From Prochlorococcus sp. AG-436-D21 (GTDB taxonomy: Bacteria; Cyanobacteriota; Cyanobacteriia; PCC-6307; Cyanobiaceae): a DNA stretch of 64,000 bases. A program made the translations under genes and the position numbers. Of this stretch, positions 6,478-32,704 are shown one piece after another (position 1 is the first letter of the stretch; every line of letters begins with the position of its first letter). The stretch is taken from NCBI GenBank assembly GCA_003212655.1, contig QCPF01000005.1, forward strand, positions 1 through 64,000, given 5' to 3'. The notes under the pieces were generated by a model. That model did no database searches. It worked only from the letters and a program-made list of their open reading frames with translations, and was not told the DNA's origin.

Positions 6478-6557
6478 TTAAAAAAACTATAAAGAATGCA
6501 AATTAAAGTGCTAGTATTTTTATAGCTAAACTATTAAGTAAAAACCTTTTTTTAAAC

Positions 6558-23984: not shown

Positions 23985-24656
23985 TTGTTCATTACCGTTT
24001 GCGGACAAAAAGGGGGGGTGGCCAAGACCTGTACAAGTATTCACCTTGCAAGTTTTTGGCATTCTGAAGGTAAAAAAGTTTGCATAGTCGATGCCGACAA
24101 GAATAGATCTGCTTTAGCATACGCATCAAGAGGCAATCTTCCATTTCCAGTTTTCCCCGTCAATTCAGCTGCTAAAGCATCAAGATCATCAGAAATTGTA
24201 ATAACTGATGGCCAAGCTAGCAGTGATCAAGAAGAACTTAAACACTTAGCGTATGGTTCAGATTTAGTTATCTTACCTACAACTGCAAAAGCAAGATCAG
24301 TAGAATTAACTGTTGAACTAGCTAATTTATTAAGTAACTTAAAAGTTAACCATGCTGTAGTAATAGTAAAAGTTGATTTTAGACAGCAAAAAGCAGCGCA
24401 ACAAGCCAAAGCAGCTCTAGAAAATTTTGGTTTATATGTTTTTGATACATTTATACCCTTACTCTCAGCATTTGATAAAGCAGAAGCCTCCGGCAATGCT
24501 GTATTTGAAGCTGTAGACGATTTAGGCAGATCAGATCCTCGTCGAATGGCGGGCTGGTCTGCTTATTGTTCAATTGCCTCACAAATTCCATGCCTGATTT
24601 CGAAGCCCTCATCCGACACCAACAACTTAAACAACCAACAACCAATAAGCGCTTAA
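23985..24656 (+). CDS. ParA-family ATPase (single gene, no ParB)
   Basis: A 223-residue deviant Walker ATPase. The N-terminus reads MFITVCGQKGGVAKTCTSIHLA, with the ParA/MinD-type P-loop KGGVAKT (residues 9-15), and VCIVDADKNRSAL is the A' motif. A short length and no visible ParB or parS suggest an orphan ParA, possibly for positioning a protein complex such as carboxysomes (McdA-like); the latter is only inference. The start is TTG 23985, because no ATG precedes the P-loop. It overlaps the following membrane-protein gene by 67 bases in another frame, which suggests coupled expression. Confidence 0.8.
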   Translation: MFITVCGQKGGVAKTCTSIHLASFWHSEGKKVCIVDADKNRSALAYASRGNLPFPVFPVNSAAKASRSSEIVITDGQASSDQEELKHLAYGSDLVILPTTAKARSVELTVELANLLSNLKVNHAVVIVKVDFRQQKAAQQAKAALENFGLYVFDTFIPLLSAFDKAEASGNAVFEAVDDLGRSDPRRMAGWSAYCSIASQIPCLISKPSSDTNNLNNQQPISA

Positions 24657-24832
24657 AAGTAGTTGATTCTCCTAATTTTGAAGAAGAAAAAAAAGAAAAA
24701 GCAAAAATTAGACAATCTGGATTATTAGTTAATTTTTTTGGAGGTTTTATAGGCTCTGTAATTGGAACTTTAACAATACTGTTTTTCTATATTAATGAAT
24801 ATCTACCATTAGATTTACTAAAACTTAAGTAG
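24590..24832 (+). CDS. Small membrane protein overlapping parA-like gene
   Basis: An 80-residue protein starting at ATG 24590 (MPDFEALIRHQQ). The first 45 residues are polar, then one membrane segment follows (about residues 48-70, LLVNFFGGFIGSVIGTLTIL). Its first 67 bases overlap the ParA-like gene. Its stop TAG (24830-24832) falls at the edge of the island's left attachment site, and in the uninterrupted chromosome it would have been directly next to the argJ stop. No known family was recognised. The context suggests an anchor or partner of the ParA-like ATPase. Confidence 0.7.
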   Translation: MPDFEALIRHQQLKQPTTNKRLKVVDSPNFEEEKKEKAKIRQSGLLVNFFGGFIGSVIGTLTILFFYINEYLPLDLLKLK

Positions 24833-24850
24833 TATATTCGCTATTAATTT
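24832..24850 (+). repeat. Attachment-site copy 1 (attL)
   Basis: GTATATTCGCTATTAATTT. The first 14 bases are identical to copies 2 (26766) and 3 (31472). On the minus strand it reads GTG GAA ATT AAT AGC GAA TAT ACT ACT TAA, that is V-E-I-N-S-E-Y-T-T-stop, the same end as argJ. The left flank is chromosomal and the right flank belongs to element 1. Copies 1 and 2 share TATATACACCTT at the same distance to the right. Confidence 0.85.
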
Positions 24851-24921
24851 CCACCTTGAGCAAATAGTATATACACCTTGCTGTAATCCATTGGCATCAC
24901 TAGAGCAAGTTTTTAGAAAAT

Positions 24922-25171: not shown

Positions 25172-26413
25172 ATGAAAAAGTTCTTAATCTTTTCTCTTAT
25201 TAGTTCAGGTTTTATATTTAATATTCAAAAAGCACAAGCAGACTGGGATTATTGGGGCTATAAAGATGAAACAGAAACAGTAAATGGTCATACAGATACT
25301 TTTCGTAATTTATATACAATTAATTCTGCTACTGGTGTTGGAACTAGAAGACAAAGATTTTGCTACAGCAGCAATATCAACACCATGAATACTTGTCATA
25401 CAAATACAGGACTTCCAATTCTTAGATCCCCAACTGATATTGCTTACCCTGAAAAACATATTGATAAAGATACTTTAATTATCAAACAAAAAGAAACAAA
25501 TTATTCAAGCGACACAATTCAGAAAAAATATAATTTAAATGGAGATACTCTAACCAGTGAGACAATTACTTCTGCTACCACTTATTGGTATGACGACTAT
25601 AGTTACGTTCAAGTAAGAGGGGCCGCACAAATTGATAGTGATGGAAATTATTATTCAGATATTGGTGGGCAAATGTGGATTAAGCAAACCTCAGATGGAA
25701 CAATTAGTTTTGGCAAATCAGGTAGTGATACTGCTATCTATTCATTAAGTGAAAATGGAGTTTCACAAGGAGGAAGTAATTTAATAAGTAGAACCTCTGA
25801 TGGGATAACAAGTATTGGAGCAAACTCACTTAAATTACAGGAAAGTGGTGGATTACAAAAAATGTGGGCGACTGATGCTAGCGGGAAAAGCATTCCAATA
25901 GATATTACAAATGGGACTAAATTACTAATCAACGGAAGAGATGTAGAGCAATCAATTAATAATGTAGGCGCACTCAGCGCTGCCTTAACAGGACTACCAA
26001 CAGTTCCAAGTGACACAACATTAGCGTGCGGTTTTGGAACGGGGACTCATGGCGGTGATATTGCTCTTTCTGGTGGGTGTGCTTCAAAAATTAATGAAAA
26101 ACTTTCAATAAATTATGCTGCTTCGTTGACTATGCCCGGTCAAGATTATGCCGGTAATCTTGAAGATAAGTTTTCTGCTAGAGCAGGATTTGTTTGGAAA
26201 TTAGGAAAGTCCTTGAAACCTACTCAAATCAGTATGGGAGAAAAAGAAAAAATGGAAGACAAGATCAATTCTCTTGAAGAGAAGAATGAAAAAATTCTGT
26301 CTAAAAATCAGAAATTAGAAAATACAGTCTCTACTCTTTTAGCAAGACTAGAGCGACTAGAAAAAGTAGCACTTGGTGAGACTAAATCAAAAGATTTAGC
26401 CAACCTAAGGTAG
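25172..26413 (+). CDS. YadA-like surface adhesin / fibre protein with C-terminal coil
   Basis: A 413-residue exported protein. Residues 1-23 form a signal peptide ending AQA before DWDYWG. The middle (about 60-260) is Ser/Thr/Gly-rich with repeated short beta-like segments such as SLSENGVSQGGSNLISRTSDG. Residues about 262-350 resemble a YadA anchor domain: NNVGALSAALTGLPTVP, then a Gly-rich set of beta strands ending ARAGFVWKLG. Unlike standard autotransporters, a coiled coil of about 60 residues follows (EKMEDKINSLEEKNEKIL onward). A trimeric outer-membrane location is likely. It is the only large cargo of element 1, and a possible function is attachment or phage-receptor change. Confidence 0.75.
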   Translation: MKKFLIFSLISSGFIFNIQKAQADWDYWGYKDETETVNGHTDTFRNLYTINSATGVGTRRQRFCYSSNINTMNTCHTNTGLPILRSPTDIAYPEKHIDKDTLIIKQKETNYSSDTIQKKYNLNGDTLTSETITSATTYWYDDYSYVQVRGAAQIDSDGNYYSDIGGQMWIKQTSDGTISFGKSGSDTAIYSLSENGVSQGGSNLISRTSDGITSIGANSLKLQESGGLQKMWATDASGKSIPIDITNGTKLLINGRDVEQSINNVGALSAALTGLPTVPSDTTLACGFGTGTHGGDIALSGGCASKINEKLSINYAASLTMPGQDYAGNLEDKFSARAGFVWKLGKSLKPTQISMGEKEKMEDKINSLEEKNEKILSKNQKLENTVSTLLARLERLEKVALGETKSKDLANLR

Positions 26414-26489: not shown

Positions 26490-26633
26490 ATGGCTGCGAC
26501 TTGGAACGTCAAATTAAGTGCTCAAGGAAGAACAATGAACGTAACCGTTCAGGCAGGAACTCAACCCGAAGCAAGAAAAATAGCGGAACATCAATATCCA
26601 GGATATAAAGCAGTTACTGCTCAAAGGGCATAA
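26490..26633 (+). CDS. 47-residue microprotein, GRT/A-x-x-x-YP family
   Basis: A 47-residue protein starting at ATG 26490 (MAATWNVKLSAQGRTMNV); the open frame extends to TTG 26439 but the conserved part begins at this ATG. It shares a pattern with the 46-residue protein of element 2 at 29096: V-x-L-x-x-x-G-R-T, then A, then a helix A-x-x-x-A-x-x-x-YP. The probable fold is a beta hairpin plus helix. Similar small proteins occur in picocyanobacteria and their phages, from memory. The function is unknown. It follows the YadA-like gene by 76 bases in the same direction. Confidence 0.75.
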   Translation: MAATWNVKLSAQGRTMNVTVQAGTQPEARKIAEHQYPGYKAVTAQRA

Positions 26634-26670
26634 TTTGAAAAATTAAATGATCTAAAAATCTTGAAATAAT

Positions 26671-26754
26671 AATCACAGTATTATCACAGTCGCAAAAGGT
26701 GTGTATTCTTTTTGGGATTTTATATAGTCATATCAATTGATCCTAAAGATCACA
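26671..26754 (+). repeat. AATCACA-type repeats, right end of element 1
   Basis: AATCACA at 26671, TATCACA at 26682 (11 bases later) and GATCACA at 26748. The last ends 11 bases before the core of copy 2. The same pair spacing (11) and the same N11 distance occur at the right end of element 2. An AAGGTGTGTAT at 26696 is a near inverse of the left-end TATATACACCTT. The region 26634-26765 holds no ORF. Confidence 0.7.
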
Positions 26755-26765
26755 AAAACTACGTC

Positions 26766-26784
26766 GTATATTCGCTATTTATTT
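26766..26784 (+). repeat. Attachment-site copy 2 (element junction)
   Basis: GTATATTCGCTATTTATTT. On the minus strand it reads GTG CAA ATA AAT AGC GAA TAT ACG ACG TAG, giving V-Q-I-N-S-E-Y-T-T-stop. The two Thr codons are synonymous with those in copies 1 and 3. It is both the right end of element 1 and the left end of element 2. Confidence 0.85.
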
Positions 26785-26962
26785 GCACCTATAGTATTTG
26801 TTATATACACCTTTATATCGCCTTCAGAGGGGTCTTAAATATTTCATCTTAATAATACTCAAATATGCTAATTTAACCCCATATATGGTGTAAAAATGGC
26901 ATTTCAGGGCATTTATTCAAGCTTTCTCTTCATAAGCTTAAACTGAATATTTTACGAATACA

Positions 26963-27085
26963 AATCACACTACAAATCACACCGCATCACAAACAAATCA
27001 CACTCCATTTAGCTCTATATGGACTTCTAATGGTGGTAAGGCTTTATGACGTGCAAATACTCCCACAAATCACAAACAAATCGCA
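26963..27085 (+). repeat. AATCACA repeat cluster, left end of element 2
   Basis: AATCACA at 26963, 26975, 26996 and 27068, with variants CATCACA at 26985 and AATCGCA at 27079. Most neighbouring copies are 10-12 bases apart. The cluster starts 184 bases inside the core of copy 2. From 26785 to 27121 there is no ORF worth calling. Confidence 0.75.
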
Positions 27086-27121
27086 TTTCCTACCAAGAGG
27101 CATATTCTAAACTTGTATAAA

Positions 27122-27249
27122 TAATTGTAGAAAGAATTAGTTTCGTTCTTTCTAAAAGAAATGGTTTTAAAGTTGTTACCACGATTTCCCATTTCTTTTT
27201 CATTGAGTAAATCTACAGCCTTCTCAAGTGAACCTTGAGGAGGTTTTTT
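27122..27249 (+). ncRNA. Candidate structured small RNA of element 2
   Basis: Three consecutive hairpins can be drawn on the plus strand, and no ORF overlaps them. Hairpin 1 pairs AGAAAGAA (27129-27136) with TTCTTTCT (27146-27153). Hairpin 2 pairs AAGAAATGG (27156-27164) with CCATTTCTT (27189-27197). Hairpin 3 is a strong terminator with a T run (27219-27249). A -10-like TATAAAT lies near 27112. The start is a guess from that box. The function is unknown; this could be a regulatory RNA for the element. Confidence 0.45.
27219..27249 (+). terminator. Intrinsic terminator, plus strand
   Basis: CCTTCTCAAG (27219-27228) pairs with CTTGAGGAGG (27234-27243), one pair being T-G, around the loop TGAAC. 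Six T residues follow (27244-27249). No plus-strand gene ends nearby, so it implies a non-coding plus-strand transcript. Confidence 0.75.
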
Positions 27250-27254
27250 ACTAC

Positions 27255-27298
27255 AAAAAAAAAATTGAAATCAAATGTTTAAAGAAATCTGATTTCAA
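27255..27298 (-). terminator. Intrinsic terminator of the small-gene operon, minus strand
   Basis: On the minus strand TTGAAATCA (27298-27290) pairs with TGATTTCAA (27273-27265), and ten T residues follow (27264-27255). It lies about 75 bases after the last gene of the five-gene operon. Confidence 0.8.
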
Positions 27299-27371
27299 AT
27301 AAGTTTTATCTCTCTCAAATCGTTATTTTAAGCTTAATAGTATCTTTCAATTTAGCTTCAGGGGTGTTGTC

Positions 27372-27728
27372 TCACGAACGAACACACGAAATAACGAAAT
27401 CAATAACAATATTAGATATATGCAAGAGGAGCTTATTATCAAATTGATTGCTGATTAGTTCTATTTGTGGTTCAGAATTAATAACCAAGTAGCAACTTGT
27501 TGTTCCTTTAGAAAAATTAAAAAATCTGTATATTAAATCTTCTTCTTCGTCATATAAAAAGAAACTTTCTTCCAAGCTCCAATCTGCAATATTTTCTAAA
27601 AGCAAATCTTCAATCGCAAGTAAAATCTTCTGGGCGATTTCTATATCTTCAGCAGAAAGTTTTGTCTTTTTTAACTGCTCTGGAGTTAATTGATATTTGT
27701 TCTTAAACTTTTCTACATCTAATTCCAT
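27372..27728 (-). CDS. Unknown 118-residue protein, last gene of small operon
   Basis: An acidic protein of 118 residues that I do not recognise. The N-terminal half is helical (ELDVEKFKNKYQLTPEQLKK, then SAEDIEIAQKILLAIEDLL), and the C-terminal half alternates beta-like strands (SCYLVINSEPQIELIS). Its ATG overlaps the stop of the preceding 51-residue gene by one base (TAATG), so it is translationally coupled. It is the last of five genes read leftward from 28540, and an intrinsic terminator follows at 27255-27298. Confidence 0.65.
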   Translation of the reverse strand: MELDVEKFKNKYQLTPEQLKKTKLSAEDIEIAQKILLAIEDLLLENIADWSLEESFFLYDEEEDLIYRFFNFSKGTTSCYLVINSEPQIELISNQFDNKLLLHISNIVIDFVISCVRS

Positions 27729-27883
27729 TAATACTCTGGCAAATTAAGAGATTTATATTCATCATCAATTTTCTTGGATAGAAACTTGGCAGCTCCAGAA
27801 CTACTTGTATCTGTAATTCTGTGACCCTTAAGCATCAATATTTTTAATTTTTCAGAAATTATCGGAGAAAATACAACATTCAT
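27728..27883 (-). CDS. Unknown 51-residue protein in small operon
   Basis: A 51-codon ORF translated by hand: MNVVFSPIISEKLKILMLKG, a helix-rich middle, and an end KSLNLPEY. Both ends overlap neighbours by one base (TAATG on each side), and this argues that it is real. It has no recognised domain. The early PIISEKLKILMLKGHRITDTS stretch could pair with the preceding small protein, as in toxin-antitoxin-like pairs, but this is inference only. Confidence 0.6.
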   Translation of the reverse strand: MNVVFSPIISEKLKILMLKGHRITDTSSSGAAKFLSKKIDDEYKSLNLPEY

Positions 27884-28020
27884 TAGTTTCGTTCAATCAA
27901 CTTTCGTTTCTGATACTCGCTTAAGATAAGTTCTTCAATATATTCTTCAGGTTCAGCATTATTTTGTCTTGCAAGTGTCTTTAGCATTACCGCAAATGTG
28001 GGAGTGATATTTAATTTCAT
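27883..28020 (-). CDS. 45-residue possible ribbon-helix-helix protein
   Basis: A 45-codon ORF translated by hand: MKLNITPTFAVMLKTLARQN, then NAEPEEYIEELILSEYQKRK. A short beta strand followed by two helices, with the loop between them rich in acidic residues, looks like a ribbon-helix-helix (CopG/Arc-type) DNA-binding protein. That is a structural guess. The ATG overlaps the previous stop (ATGA) and its own stop overlaps the next ATG (TAATG), so it is embedded in a coupled operon. Confidence 0.6.
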   Translation of the reverse strand: MKLNITPTFAVMLKTLARQNNAEPEEYIEELILSEYQKRKLIERN

Positions 28021-28304
28021 AATTTCAAATAAGGTAATCCTGAAGGAGCTGGCTTCATACCTTCAGGTGGTTTTCCTTTAATTGGTTGAGAGTGCCTTTT
28101 AACTAATCTTGGTGGGTTCGCCAACATATTAGGTCTAAAGGTAACTTCAAAATAAGTGTCTGGGTCATTATCAGAAATCTGATAATATTTTTGCGACATT
28201 AGTTCTCGGTGCTGATTACGAATATCAAAAATATTTCTTCTTTCGCGTTCAAAGTAAGCATCATCTTGATAAGCCAGTTCATTCTTTTCGTAATTTTGCT
28301 TCAT
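28017..28304 (-). CDS. Unknown 95-residue protein in small operon
   Basis: A 95-residue hydrophilic protein of unknown function. It is rich in charged and aromatic residues in the first half (NELAYQDDAYFERERRNIFD), and Pro-rich at the end (PIKGKPPEGMKPAPSGLPY). No membrane segment or known domain is visible. It overlaps the 78-residue gene upstream by one base and the 45-residue gene downstream by four bases, so it is translationally coupled on both sides. Confidence 0.65.
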   Translation of the reverse strand: MKQNYEKNELAYQDDAYFERERRNIFDIRNQHRELMSQKYYQISDNDPDTYFEVTFRPNMLANPPRLVKRHSQPIKGKPPEGMKPAPSGLPYLKL

Positions 28305-28540
28305 TAGATTATGGTAATTTTCTTTTCGTTAAACTCTTCGTTATATCTTTCTGCGATTAAGTGCTTAACCAGAGTTGAATATCCGCACCTATACTTTTTC
28401 ATCAGCTCTTCTTCTTTATCATTCAAATGTCGTTGGTGCATTCCATAAGAAACGTTCTTACTTATAGGTGGTCTTGAGTGAAAAGGAACTTCGTTCCTTT
28501 TGCCTTCGGCATCTCTTCTCTTGAATAATGTTTGTGGCAT
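28304..28540 (-). CDS. Unknown 78-residue basic protein, first gene of small operon
   Basis: A 78-residue protein, first of five overlapping genes. The N-terminal part is basic and Pro-rich (MPQTLFKRRDAEGKRNEVPF). The C-terminal part is helical, DKEEELMKKYRCGYSTLVKH followed by LIAERYNEEF, and could be a ribbon-helix-helix or small helical DNA-binding domain. No family is recognised. The upstream region (28541-28680) has an AT-rich promoter-like stretch and a 12-base palindrome. A regulator or excisionase role would fit a first gene in such an element but is not shown. Confidence 0.65.
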   Translation of the reverse strand: MPQTLFKRRDAEGKRNEVPFHSRPPISKNVSYGMHQRHLNDKEEELMKKYRCGYSTLVKHLIAERYNEEFNEKKITII

Positions 28541-29095
28541 ATTTGTCTAATTGATTATCTTATTAACTTCATTTATTTATGCATTACGGACTTACCATAC
28601 ATCTCTTACCTATACTTCTATGAACCTTCTTATATGATTTCTTCTGCAAAATCCCTTTAAAGTGTCCTATAGGACTTAATTAAGGCTTAACATTCTCATC
28701 AACCTCTACAAAGGTTATTGTATACAAGTTTTATGCAAAATTGCACTATTATATGAAGTTAAGTAAACTTAAGCGGTATTATTGTTAGCATTTAAATATA
28801 AACATATAATCCTTGACATCTATTCTGGCATCTACTCTAGTCCTTTTTACCACAATCCCTTTAAAGTATCTTTAAGAAGCCATACCCTCTGGTTCAACCG
28901 TAACAGAGTTACTTATATAAAAAATGATAGGATTTTAAAAATATTTTACATAAGTTCATATTCAAGAGAAATAATATCAGCATCTAATCATCAAGAAATC
29001 TTCGCTGACATCAATTCTGCCATCTATTTTAGAGGCATAAACATACCATCACTTTTTTTCGTCGCTGTTGTAGGTCAATCTGAAGGGACTTTTTT
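28541..29095. repeat. Repeat-rich spacer between small operon and recombinase genes
   Basis: This 555-base stretch lacks a convincing gene. It holds a perfect palindrome GTCCTATAGGAC (28664-28675) and a 14-base direct repeat AATCCCTTTAAAGT (28650 and 28854). It also has two copies of a tandem 12-mer: CATCTATTCTGG-CATCTACTCTAG at 28817-28840, and CATCAATTCTGC-CATCTATTTTAG at 29009-29032. These could be protein-binding sites, for example serine-recombinase or regulator sites. A TTG-started plus-strand frame (28782-29099) crosses it but lacks support. Confidence 0.55.
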
Positions 29096-29236
29096 TTAGA
29101 AAGTTGCCGTTGTAAAGATAATTGTGGCATCAGGGTAAATATTCCTGGCTGTTTCTTCTGCTTGCTGATTAGAGGTTGCATAGCACCTGAACCAGAAAGT
29201 CCTACCCCCTAGAAAGAGTTGCACCTTATACTTCAT
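29096..29236 (-). CDS. 46-residue microprotein coupled to serine recombinase
   Basis: A 46-codon ORF translated by hand, starting MKYKVQLFLGGRTFWFR and ending in ATIIFTTATF. It shares the pattern V-x-L-x-x-x-G-R-T, A, then a helix with A-x-x-x-A and YP, with the 47-residue protein of element 1 (26490). Its ATG overlaps the stop of the serine recombinase (ATGA), so the two are made together. Small basic partners of recombinases can be directionality factors; that is inference here. The family otherwise has no known role. Confidence 0.75.
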   Translation of the reverse strand: MKYKVQLFLGGRTFWFRCYATSNQQAEETARNIYPDATIIFTTATF

Positions 29237-29772
29237 TTCTTTAATAAGCGATAAACACTATCTCTATGAATATTCAATTCTTTTGCGATTTTTGTAGCTC
29301 CATATCCTTCTGCTTTTAATCTTCTAATTTCTTCTACATTAATTTTTTTCTTACCGCCCTTATAAACTCCTCTTGCTTTTGCTTTCGCAATTCCCTCCAT
29401 CTGTCTCTCCTTGCGAATATTTGTCTCAAACTCGGCAAAAACTCCAAGCATATCCAGAAAGCATTTAGAAGTTGCATCTTTAGTTGATATTGGTTGCTCT
29501 GTTGCTACTAATCCAACTCCTTTATCAGTTAATTCTTTAACTATTAACTGCAAATCTAAAATACTGCGGGCTAATCTATCCGTCCTAGTGATATAGCAAG
29601 TATCGCCTTCACGGACAAACTCAAGCATCTCTTTTAATTTTTCTCTCCCTTGAGTAGAAGTTCCGCTTACTTTCTCCTCAAAAATCTTATCTACGTTTTC
29701 CTTCTGGACTGCTTCGCGTTGAAGTTCTAAAGATTGAGTTGAACTACTAACTCTTATGTAAGCAACTTTCAT
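29233..29772 (-). CDS. Serine recombinase (resolvase/invertase family)
   Basis: A 179-residue small serine recombinase. The N-terminus MKVAYIRVSSSTQSLELQRE carries the catalytic serine (residue 9, 10 or 11). REGDTCYITRTDRLARSILDL (about 56-76) holds the active-site arginines. FLDMLGVFAEFETNIRKERQMEGI is the long E helix, and the C-terminal 45 residues are a helix-turn-helix (GYGATKIAKELNIHRDSVYRLL). The length matches resolvases and invertases. It may act on the element's own sites, for example resolving dimers or inverting DNA. It overlaps the 46-residue gene by four bases, and a repeat-rich 141-base region lies upstream. Confidence 0.93.
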   Translation of the reverse strand: MKVAYIRVSSSTQSLELQREAVQKENVDKIFEEKVSGTSTQGREKLKEMLEFVREGDTCYITRTDRLARSILDLQLIVKELTDKGVGLVATEQPISTKDATSKCFLDMLGVFAEFETNIRKERQMEGIAKAKARGVYKGGKKKINVEEIRRLKAEGYGATKIAKELNIHRDSVYRLLKK

Positions 29773-29913: not shown

Positions 29914-31287
29914 TTATTCGTCTACACCAAGTAATTTTTCGTATTCCATCAAATCATTAGAATAAGTTTTTTTGTAAAAAGTTCTATTTTTAGTAATTTT
30001 TTCCCACGTATTTCTGCTTTCCTGTTCGTGGTGGTAATAAGTTAGTTCAATTTCTTTTAATGAAGTCCCCGCAAGTTCAGCCAGAGTAATTAAAGGAACT
30101 CCATTTCCTACTGCAAATGATATACCTGTGTGGCGAAAACTATACCAAGTTATATTTTTACTTCCCCAGTATCGTGCTTTGCATAAATCTTTAATTTTTT
30201 TCCATTCTCTTTCCCACGTTCCATTTCCCATTCTTTCATCTTTATTAAACTTTTTAATAATTGGCTTATCCATATATTCAAGTGGGACGTGAGGAAACTT
30301 ACTCTTGGGAACTTTAGGTATTCCAGATAATTCACGAATAGCGTTGAAGCGTGTAACTGTGGGAGTTAAAACAACTCTGGAAGTTCCAACTTTACAAGCT
30401 TCTTTTCTCACACGAATTAAATGACCGATTTGTTGGTCTTCTTTAGTAAGATTTTCTGCAACATCTAAATCTCCCCATACCAAGTTTCTTAAAGTTCCTT
30501 TTCTTAATAAGCTATTCGTCATTATGAAAATACAATTCAATAAAATCTTGCGATTATATACTTGCGAAGGTGTTGCAGCTTTACTTTTAGTCCAAGCATA
30601 AAGAGTAGGAATTGTTTGTTTATATTCTTTCTGGTTTAAATAATCTCTTCTACTATCTTTTCTTCTTTCTCTTACAACTTCTTTAAACTCTGGGACTTTT
30701 AAAACTAATCCTCTATTCACAAGAAATCTAAAATACAATCTGAAAGTTGATAATTCTTGAGATATTGTTTGCATATACTTGGGCGGTGTATTGGTAGGTG
30801 TTTTTAAGCTCCTCCAATAGGGATATTCATATAATTTTTTATAATCAAGTTTTTCTAAAGGTATATTTTTATTCTTATAAAACTTTTTAAGGTGGTCTAA
30901 CCTTGCGGACATAGCCCTATGAGTTCCTTTTGTAATGTATCCGCGAACTGCATATGGTTTAATTCTTTTCTCTTCTTGTCTTAAGAAATCGTCCATCAGG
31001 TCAAATAATCCTTTCTTGACTATTGCCTTCATACCAGCTTGCATTCTTGCTTTTGCTTCGTGGAACTTTTCCTGTGCGAATAATCTTGCTTCTTCTAATC
31101 CAACATTTATATCGTCATTATCTCCTTGTATCTTCGTAGATTTTTTTATTGTGCCTTCGCCATCTAACTGCAAATAGTATTGCCACACGCTTGAACGAGG
31201 ACGCTTGTGTATAAAACAATTCCTCAAGCCATATATTTCTACCTTATGTTTAATGTATTTTCCCTCTGTGGGTCGTCCTTTAGGCAT
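29914..31287 (-). CDS. Tyrosine recombinase (integrase)
   Basis: A 457-residue phage-type integrase. The catalytic domain occupies the C-terminal half. The first Arg is seen in LLRKGTLRNLVWGDLD (about residue 255), the box II pair in TWYSFRHTGISFAVGNG (H-R region, about 385), and the nucleophile Tyr in the late ELTYYHHEQ (about 430). The N-terminal part has an arm-binding-like basic region and a SAM-like core-binding domain. It starts at ATG 31287, 28 bases from AATCACA repeats, and lies 177 bases from the attachment site in argJ. Such recombinases integrate elements at short gene-end sites, which fits this context well. Confidence 0.93.
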   Translation of the reverse strand: MPKGRPTEGKYIKHKVEIYGLRNCFIHKRPRSSVWQYYLQLDGEGTIKKSTKIQGDNDDINVGLEEARLFAQEKFHEAKARMQAGMKAIVKKGLFDLMDDFLRQEEKRIKPYAVRGYITKGTHRAMSARLDHLKKFYKNKNIPLEKLDYKKLYEYPYWRSLKTPTNTPPKYMQTISQELSTFRLYFRFLVNRGLVLKVPEFKEVVRERRKDSRRDYLNQKEYKQTIPTLYAWTKSKAATPSQVYNRKILLNCIFIMTNSLLRKGTLRNLVWGDLDVAENLTKEDQQIGHLIRVRKEACKVGTSRVVLTPTVTRFNAIRELSGIPKVPKSKFPHVPLEYMDKPIIKKFNKDERMGNGTWEREWKKIKDLCKARYWGSKNITWYSFRHTGISFAVGNGVPLITLAELAGTSLKEIELTYYHHEQESRNTWEKITKNRTFYKKTYSNDLMEYEKLLGVDE

Positions 31288-31314: not shown

Positions 31315-31460
31315 AATCACACATAAATCACACTGCAACTATGTTGATATAACAAATATATTGATAAGGCTATAAATGTGCCTTTATTGAGAAAATATGC
31401 CTGTTTTTGGTCTTAAATGGTGGTTTTATTGAGAATATCTACAGCCCATTATAAATCACA
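31315..31460 (+). repeat. AATCACA repeats, right end of element 2
   Basis: AATCACA at 31315 and 31326 (11 bases apart), and again at 31454. The last ends 11 bases before the core of copy 3, exactly as at the right end of element 1. The first pair lies in the upstream region of the integrase gene, so the integrase might repress its own expression. The rest of 31288-31464 is without an ORF. Confidence 0.75.
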
Positions 31461-31464
31461 CTTT

Positions 31465-32704
31465 CTATGTAGTATATTCGCTATTTATTTCAACATATTT
31501 TTTAGAAAGATCGCACCCCCAAGCTGTGCCTTTCGATTCTCCAGAATTTAGATTAATCATAATTTCTACAATATCATCTACCAAATATCTACCTTTCATT
31601 CTGGACTTAATATAGTCTGTGACTTTTTGTTGATCATATTTATTTAACTGGCCTTTTTCCAAAATATGGGCGTTTCCTATATATAAGTCAACGTCATTTA
31701 AATTAAATTTAACTCCAGAATTACCTGCAGCAGAAATGATTCGTCCCCAATTTGGATCACAACCATGTATCGCAGTTTTTACCAAGGCAGAATTACAAAT
31801 AGATTTCGCGAGCATAATTGCATCATCTGTATTTTTTGCTCCTTGAACCAAAACTTCTATTAAACAATTTGCTCCCTCTCCATCTCTTGCAATATTTTTT
31901 GCCAAGTTCTGACATACAATATCAATACCTTGTTGGATAATTGGGAAAAACCTTTTTTCAATTTTCTCTCCTGCATTTATTCCAACAAAAGAATCATTTG
32001 TGCTTGTCTCTCCATCAACTGATATTGCATTAAAAGATTTTTGAACCGCAATAGCAATCATTTTGTCCCATTCTTCTTTTTGAATACCCGCATCACAGGT
32101 TAGAAAAGCAAGCATTGTAGCCATATTGGGGTAAATCATTCCTGAACCTTTTGCAAATCCTGCTATTTTTATTTTTCTACCTTGAATAATCGTCTCTATT
32201 GACACTTTTTTTCAAAGTCAAATCAGTAGTTAAAATTGCTTCTGCTGCATTTTCAAAATTATTACCCTTTAAATCACTAACTAAATTCGGTAAATTTTTT
32301 ACTAAATCATTTATTTGTATTGGAACACCAATTACACCAGTTGAGCACATTAAAACTTCTTCTTCTTTTATTCCTAAAAGTTCCGCAATCTTTCCTGTAG
32401 CAATTTGAAAATGTTGAATGCCAAGATTTCCTGTACATGCATTTGCTTGACCAGAATTAATTAGAATTGCTCTTACAAAACCTGAAGTTGTTTTAATCCT
32501 TTCCTCACAAATATCCACACAAGAAGCTCGAACTATTGATTGGGTAAACATCCCACTAAAAATACTTCCTTCTGGAGCGAGTATTAGTGCTAAATCTTTT
32601 TTATTAGAAGCTTTTAAACCAGCAGATATCCCAGCAAAAAGAAACCCCTTGGGTGTTACCTTACTGTCATCAACAAACGACCAATTGGAATCTAACTGGC
32701 TCAA
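31465..32704 (-). pseudogene. argJ: argJ, bifunctional ornithine acetyltransferase/NAGS, one-base frameshift
   Basis: ArgJ makes N-acetylglutamate and recycles the acetyl group in arginine synthesis. Two overlapping frames cover the gene: residues 1-about 166 from TTG 32704, and the rest from about 32205 to TAG 31465. They meet at a run of seven T (32206-32212; A7 on the coding strand). Removing one base gives a single 412-residue ArgJ, the expected length, with KK-VSIETIIQGRK across the join. The self-cleavage site is intact in KGSGMIYPNMATMLAF, where Thr is the nucleophile. Sequence error, true mutation or slippage at A7 are all possible. The 3' end is the island's integration site. Confidence 0.85.
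31472..31490 (+). repeat. Attachment-site copy 3 (attR), inside argJ
   Basis: GTATATTCGCTATTTATTT. It is the 3' end of argJ itself. On the minus strand it reads GTT GAA ATA AAT AGC GAA TAT ACT ACA TAG, V-E-I-N-S-E-Y-T-T-stop. The right side is chromosomal argJ; the last codons and the stop come from the element. Confidence 0.85.

Follow-up and report, generated by a model that had tools for sequence, protein, structure and literature searches.

Two mobile elements lying in tandem on contig QCPF01000005.1 of Prochlorococcus sp. AG-436-D21 (GCA_003212655.1) each carry a very short open reading frame (ORF), and the question they raise is whether both ORFs encode one protein that serves the pair of elements. 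The window, by which we mean the whole 64,000-nucleotide stretch analyzed (positions 1 to 64,000 of the contig), comes from a genome that is 72.6% complete. The initial annotation placed ORFs for 47 and 46 amino acids in elements 1 and 2, respectively, and took them as one microprotein family common to a satellite and its likely helper. Both ORFs are present at those places. We show here that both genes are members of a widespread superfamily of picocyanobacterial and cyanophage proteins of about 47 residues with beta-beta-alpha-beta architecture. This family is neither new nor specific to mobile elements. On the other hand, the recurrent link of the element-2 branch to small serine recombinases appears to be undescribed in the literature searched.

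Pairwise, the relatedness of the two window proteins is weak but real. Their ungapped alignment contains 10 identities in 33 positions (E 2e-4, as a single comparison), the local alignment score of the pair was equalled in only 2 of 5000 shuffles, and no other of the window's 143 short ORFs matched the 26490 protein as well as the ORF at 29096 did. Profile comparisons settled the matter. With hhalign, the element-1 family aligned to the element-2 family over 40 columns without gaps (E 1.8e-6, probability 90%), a score reached by none of 60 column shuffles, and a hidden Markov model (HMM) of the element-2 family recovered the element-1 ORF with E 5.3e-4. AlphaFold2 models of both microproteins were compact single domains of high confidence with the order strand-strand-helix-strand. 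The beta hairpin plus helix that had been predicted was thus found in both models, together with a third strand. Most changes in both genes fall at third codon positions: the element-1 gene and its Synechococcus relative differ by 27 silent and 13 amino-acid-changing codons, and the element-2 gene and its nearest relative by 20 and 16, respectively. As judged from these codon comparisons, both genes are under purifying selection. However, a family tree of 39 members, built from few alignment columns, placed the element-1 and element-2 proteins on separate branches (support 92/100). The two proteins are therefore distant cousins from two subfamilies of one superfamily and not a single shared protein.

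The distribution of the two subfamilies differs. The element-2 protein matched phrog_685 with E 5.5e-7, residues 1-46 aligning to profile positions 1-46 of 47. Phage members of phrog_685 were present in 65 viral contigs and, when the threshold was loose, in 66 phage records. Among bacterial genomes, phrog_685 was present in 44 of 99 relatives, all 44 within the window's own genus, and in 107 of the 270 nearly complete genomes of a family-wide search, including most of that genus. The usual neighbor of the chromosomal copy in the genus was znuB, and a gene for a Fur-type regulator lay close by. This spread and this setting indicate a near-core chromosomal gene in Prochlorococcus, which is also widespread in cyanophages, and the suggestion that the microprotein is an element marker has to be abandoned.

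The element-1 protein had no match to phrog_685 at E ≤ 1, its similarity being at superfamily level only, and a search of 199 further genomes from the genus did not recover it. Its relatives came from the chromosomes of four genomes within one Synechococcus genus (74-77% identity for complete copies) and from cyanophage S-CREM2 (52% identity); a scan of viral contigs with the element-1 family gave no match. The nearest of these is a Synechococcus chromosomal gene with 77% identity, which speaks against a protein common to satellite and helper. A clear but more distant relative of the element-1 protein was seen in an Oceanospirillaceae metagenome-assembled genome (L116, 5001-5153), and lies either outside cyanobacteria or on a contaminating contig. 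Sequence searches of the PDB returned chance matches only, such as chymotrypsin inhibitor 2 and designed helical bundles.

The element-2 microprotein gene overlaps the stop codon of a small serine recombinase gene by four bases (ATGA), as the initial annotation had it. The identical overlap was found in the window and in loci L235, L236, L237 and L238, and also in L241, where the gene product carries an extra N-terminal domain and looks like a fusion. Ten loci in the genus contain a relative of the window recombinase: at four of them the microprotein gene follows with the ATGA overlap, two have other small genes in its slot, and four have neither, one of these with a broken recombinase. In all the genomic loci fetched, family genes were found no more than 1 kb from a small serine recombinase gene at 13 sites; all 13 copies share the strand of the recombinase, and 12 lie downstream of it. 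A rough chance rate for such proximity, computed with a generous recombinase density, is about 0.0015 per copy. Because the sites share ancestry and are not all independent, and the chance rate is not corrected for this, the very small probabilities that result are taken only as far above chance. On the family tree, the recombinase-link label changes 8 times, with at least 5 changes forced by well-supported branches, which argues that the link has come or gone several times and does not descend from a single chance event. In addition, the recombinases linked to family members belong to clearly different lineages. Clustering beside recombinases thus holds for the non-core copies of the element-2 branch, but neither for most copies of the family nor for the element-1 branch, near whose members no recombinase was found. 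A gene next to a recombinase, as would be expected of a directionality factor or a recombinase accessory protein, is therefore seen in the element-2 branch only. Likewise, hits in core genomes lacking any link to mobile DNA, which had been named in advance as evidence against the original proposal, describe most copies but not the element-2 branch. As a side observation from the family-wide search, nearly every Prochlorococcus genome had one weaker serine-recombinase match (phrog_125) in an open frame of about 220 residues, which is likely a chromosomal gene.

The explanation that we tentatively favor, although at somewhat less than even odds, is that the element-2 microprotein assists the serine recombinase as an accessory protein whose translation is coupled to that of the enzyme, and that the element-1 protein is cargo. 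Mobile elements would keep the microprotein gene directly downstream of the small serine recombinase gene, the order and the overlap being directly visible. From the fixed gene order and the overlap of stop and start codons it would seem that the microprotein is made in step with the recombinase, and the two proteins could be translated from the same message by stop-start coupling. Resolvase-type enzymes work in synaptic complexes. Either the enzyme or its synapse could offer a docking surface to a small sheet protein, and by binding either of them the element-2 microprotein might time the resolution or inversion of DNA. The element-1 protein, from the branch present in Synechococcus chromosomes and one cyanophage, would most likely be cargo with another target. 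Small serine recombinases occur in many Prochlorococcus and Synechococcus elements, and a microprotein encoded right behind them is a concrete, small and testable partner.

Several observations weigh against this explanation. About two thirds of the fetched small serine recombinase loci have no microprotein gene. Most family copies, for their part, lie away from any recombinase; these are the phage copies and the near-core copy next to znuB, and none of 65 viral copies had a recombinase relative beside it. In phages, a peptidase gene or a DNA methyltransferase gene can precede the family gene with the same kind of overlap, so a stop-start overlap alone is no proof of shared function. Finally, a recombinase-linked copy from Synechococcus genus g35 has an apparent signal peptide and two cysteines, which makes it ill-suited to be a DNA-recombination factor. 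Signal-peptide-bearing family members were observed in three loci of that genus (L136-L138, at about 1440-1700), two of the three within 1 kb of a serine recombinase.

It is also conceivable, if less probable, that the microproteins are passengers: a small mobile family that sits behind many island genes and has a role unrelated to recombination, for example as a generic binding domain used as phage anti-host factor or island cargo. The neighbors of family genes are indeed widely varied (peptidase, cytosine methyltransferase, 2-oxoglutarate-dependent oxygenase, ParB-methyltransferase and serine recombinase), and the secreted-looking variant together with the Oceanospirillaceae and Synechococcus chromosomal relatives shows functional spread. 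However, the recombinase link is too frequent for this, is always on the same strand, repeats an exact overlap, and recurs with distant recombinase lineages. The initial annotation had proposed instead a directionality or maturation factor common to satellite and helper, and both elements do lie in tandem at one attachment (att) site with a family member each. Such a factor is now very improbable: the two proteins are on different branches, the element-1 branch has no recombinase nearby, there is no general association of the family with att sites, and an insert at argJ in locus L234 carries a relative of the YadA-like gene of element 1 with no element-1 microprotein seen.

A different proposal, which we consider rather unlikely, is that the family binds RNA polymerase (RNAP) like T7 Gp2 or Firmicutes RNAP epsilon. 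On this view, phage copies would redirect transcription in the host, the near-core protein would be associated with host RNAP, and element copies would tune transcription of the element or the host. The top Foldseek match in the PDB for both models was T7 Gp2 bound to Escherichia coli RNAP (TM 0.75 and 0.78), with YkzG/epsilon also high, but the Foldseek E-values of 0.085 are not significant. Structure 4lk0_M superposed on the models with Z 7.2 (root-mean-square deviation 1.5 over 46 residues) and Z 7.0 (1.6 over 46), which ties Gp2 with ribosomal eL20 and PurS; the likeness to these two was set aside, as it consists of the tie in Z and has no sequence support. PF16857 (RNA_pol_inhib) was matched by 9 of 32 family members (best E 5.7e-4), under the curated cut-offs, and by neither window microprotein, while one freshwater phage member matched the RNA polymerase inhibitors of phrog_1307 (E 0.0028). 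An alignment of Gp2 compared by hhalign with the two microprotein families gave E 3.2e-5 and 1e-4, equalled in 0 of 60 shuffles each, and in phages S-PM2 and Syn33 the family gene lies near replication genes. Against these points, the fold is a common one, and the residues of Gp2 that matter are missing. Arginines R56 and R58 contact the beta' jaw and their loss abolishes binding (PMC3541766); equivalents on the third strand are absent from the element-2 family alignment, and the element-1 family matches one at best, a single R near the end. Moreover, RNAP epsilon, although structurally related to Gp2, binds a different site on RNAP (PMC7722741), which means that the target is not determined by the fold. 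RNAP binding, suggested by profiles and models, is thus a lead only. Its widest version appears improbable: the superfamily would be the cyanobacterial counterpart of RNAP epsilon and Gp2, with the near-core copy on host RNAP, T4-like cyanophage copies that redirect RNAP, and elements that couple their copies to recombinases.

Table 1. Features of the tandem elements and their insertion site, in window coordinates.
Feature	Position	Strand	Remarks
Element-1 microprotein	26490..26633	+	47 aa; beta-beta-alpha-beta: E3-11, E14-22, H25-35, E40-46; model pLDDT (predicted local distance difference test) 89.6
Element-2 microprotein	29096..29236	-	46 aa; phrog_685 family; beta-beta-alpha-beta: E2-9, E12-19, H23-33, E38-45; pLDDT 95
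Overlap (ATGA) of recombinase stop and element-2 microprotein start	29233..29236	-	four bases
Small serine recombinase, resolvase/invertase type	29233..29772	-	179 aa; PF00239 E 1.3e-36, HTH_7 E 2.4e-7, phrog_125
Tyrosine recombinase (integrase) of element 2	29914..31287	-	457 aa; phrog_1 E 3.5e-19, PF13102
Small gene after microprotein in element-2-type elements	28304..28540	-	78 aa; relatives in L235, L236, L237, L240, L241
Small gene, element-2-type cassette	28017..28304	-	95 aa
Small gene, element-2-type cassette	27883..28020	-	45 aa
Small gene, element-2-type cassette	27728..27883	-	51 aa
Small gene, element-2-type cassette	27372..27728	-	118 aa
Element-1 cargo, weak YadA-anchor match	25172..26413	+	413 aa; PF03895 E 1.4e-4, just under cut-off
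argJ, target gene	31465..32704	-	two overlapping frames in window (31465-32205, 32177-32704)
att-like copy 1	31450..31506	.	argJ 3' end
att-like copy 2	26759..26792	.	boundary of elements 2 and 1; 85% identity
att-like copy 3	24826..24854	.	far end of element 1; 90% identity

The cassette behind the recombinase recurs in other elements. In L235, L236 and L237, as in the window, the order is serine recombinase, ATGA overlap, microprotein and then homologs of the small genes of 27372-28540; an integrase lies upstream wherever the contig extends far enough. The integrases differ between elements while the cassette remains the same. In L239 and L240 another small gene occupies the ATGA slot. That of L239 (complement strand, near locus position 6522) encodes a different protein of 56 residues (MKISIQW...) with the same ATGA overlap; a look-alike was noticed in L002 near a DNA methyltransferase fragment, and tBLASTn with the 56-residue protein found no phage relative. 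The slot protein of L241 (5122-5496, minus strand) has 124 residues, its C-terminal part being the family domain. Its N-terminal part (phrog_16908) occurs in L240 (10207-10437, minus strand) as a separate gene for 76 residues, followed by a 52-residue protein of similar layout. In L244 (8182-9805, minus strand), a family member overlaps the end of a ParB-domain DNA methylase gene by 11 bases within an island with a tyrosine integrase, which resembles the overlap of the family gene with a methyltransferase gene in phage S-PM2.

Both elements are inserted in tandem at argJ. The sequence past the third att-like copy is the one that follows argJ in relatives without insert, which makes the parA-like gene at 23985 an ordinary chromosomal neighbor. 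In relatives, argJ is a single intact frame of 418 residues, and its split in the window reflects either a frameshift or a mistake in the assembly. Integration has a hot spot at the argJ 3' end: in relatives (L200-L228), the position right after the stop codon is empty or holds differing inserts. Transfer-messenger RNA (tmRNA) was also considered as the att site and dismissed, as no repeated copy of it turned up and the repeats correspond to argJ.

How, then, does this locus compare with known systems? Like tycheposon-like elements, element 2 encodes a tyrosine recombinase and is flanked by repeats where it sits in the chromosome, but it is inserted at the argJ 3' end, where there is no transfer RNA (tRNA). 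The elements of PMC10187409 and the Prochlorococcus tycheposons likewise combine a tyrosine integrase and a small serine recombinase in variable islands of Prochlorococcus and Synechococcus. That paper describes a new tyrosine integrase with a small serine recombinase close by in picocyanobacterial islands and suggests a resolving role; as far as searched, it names tRNA-Phe and tRNA-Cys as sites, not argJ as here, and no mention of a microprotein was found in it. The element-1 protein is similar in size to DpnD-PcfM (PF14207) and matches it weakly (E 0.094), its 13.2 bits being far under the cut-off of 25. As for T7 Gp2 (PF16857, phrog_1307) and Firmicutes RNAP epsilon (YkzG/RpoY), they share the beta-beta-alpha-beta fold and a similar length with the microproteins, and Gp2 shows a weak but shuffle-proof profile similarity to both families, whose alignments do not conserve its essential R56 and R58. 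The closest known relative is PHROG 685, the T4-like cyanophage cluster GC 650 of unknown function, to which the element-2 protein is a full-length match; the element-1 protein has no above-threshold match to it, and relatives of that protein match weakly (E 0.013-0.019). The phage copies, annotated "T4-LIKE GC: 650", adjoin no recombinase relative, unlike the element-2 gene. Since the family is at once near-core in the host and common in cyanophages, solving the role of one copy would inform those of host, phage and element alike.

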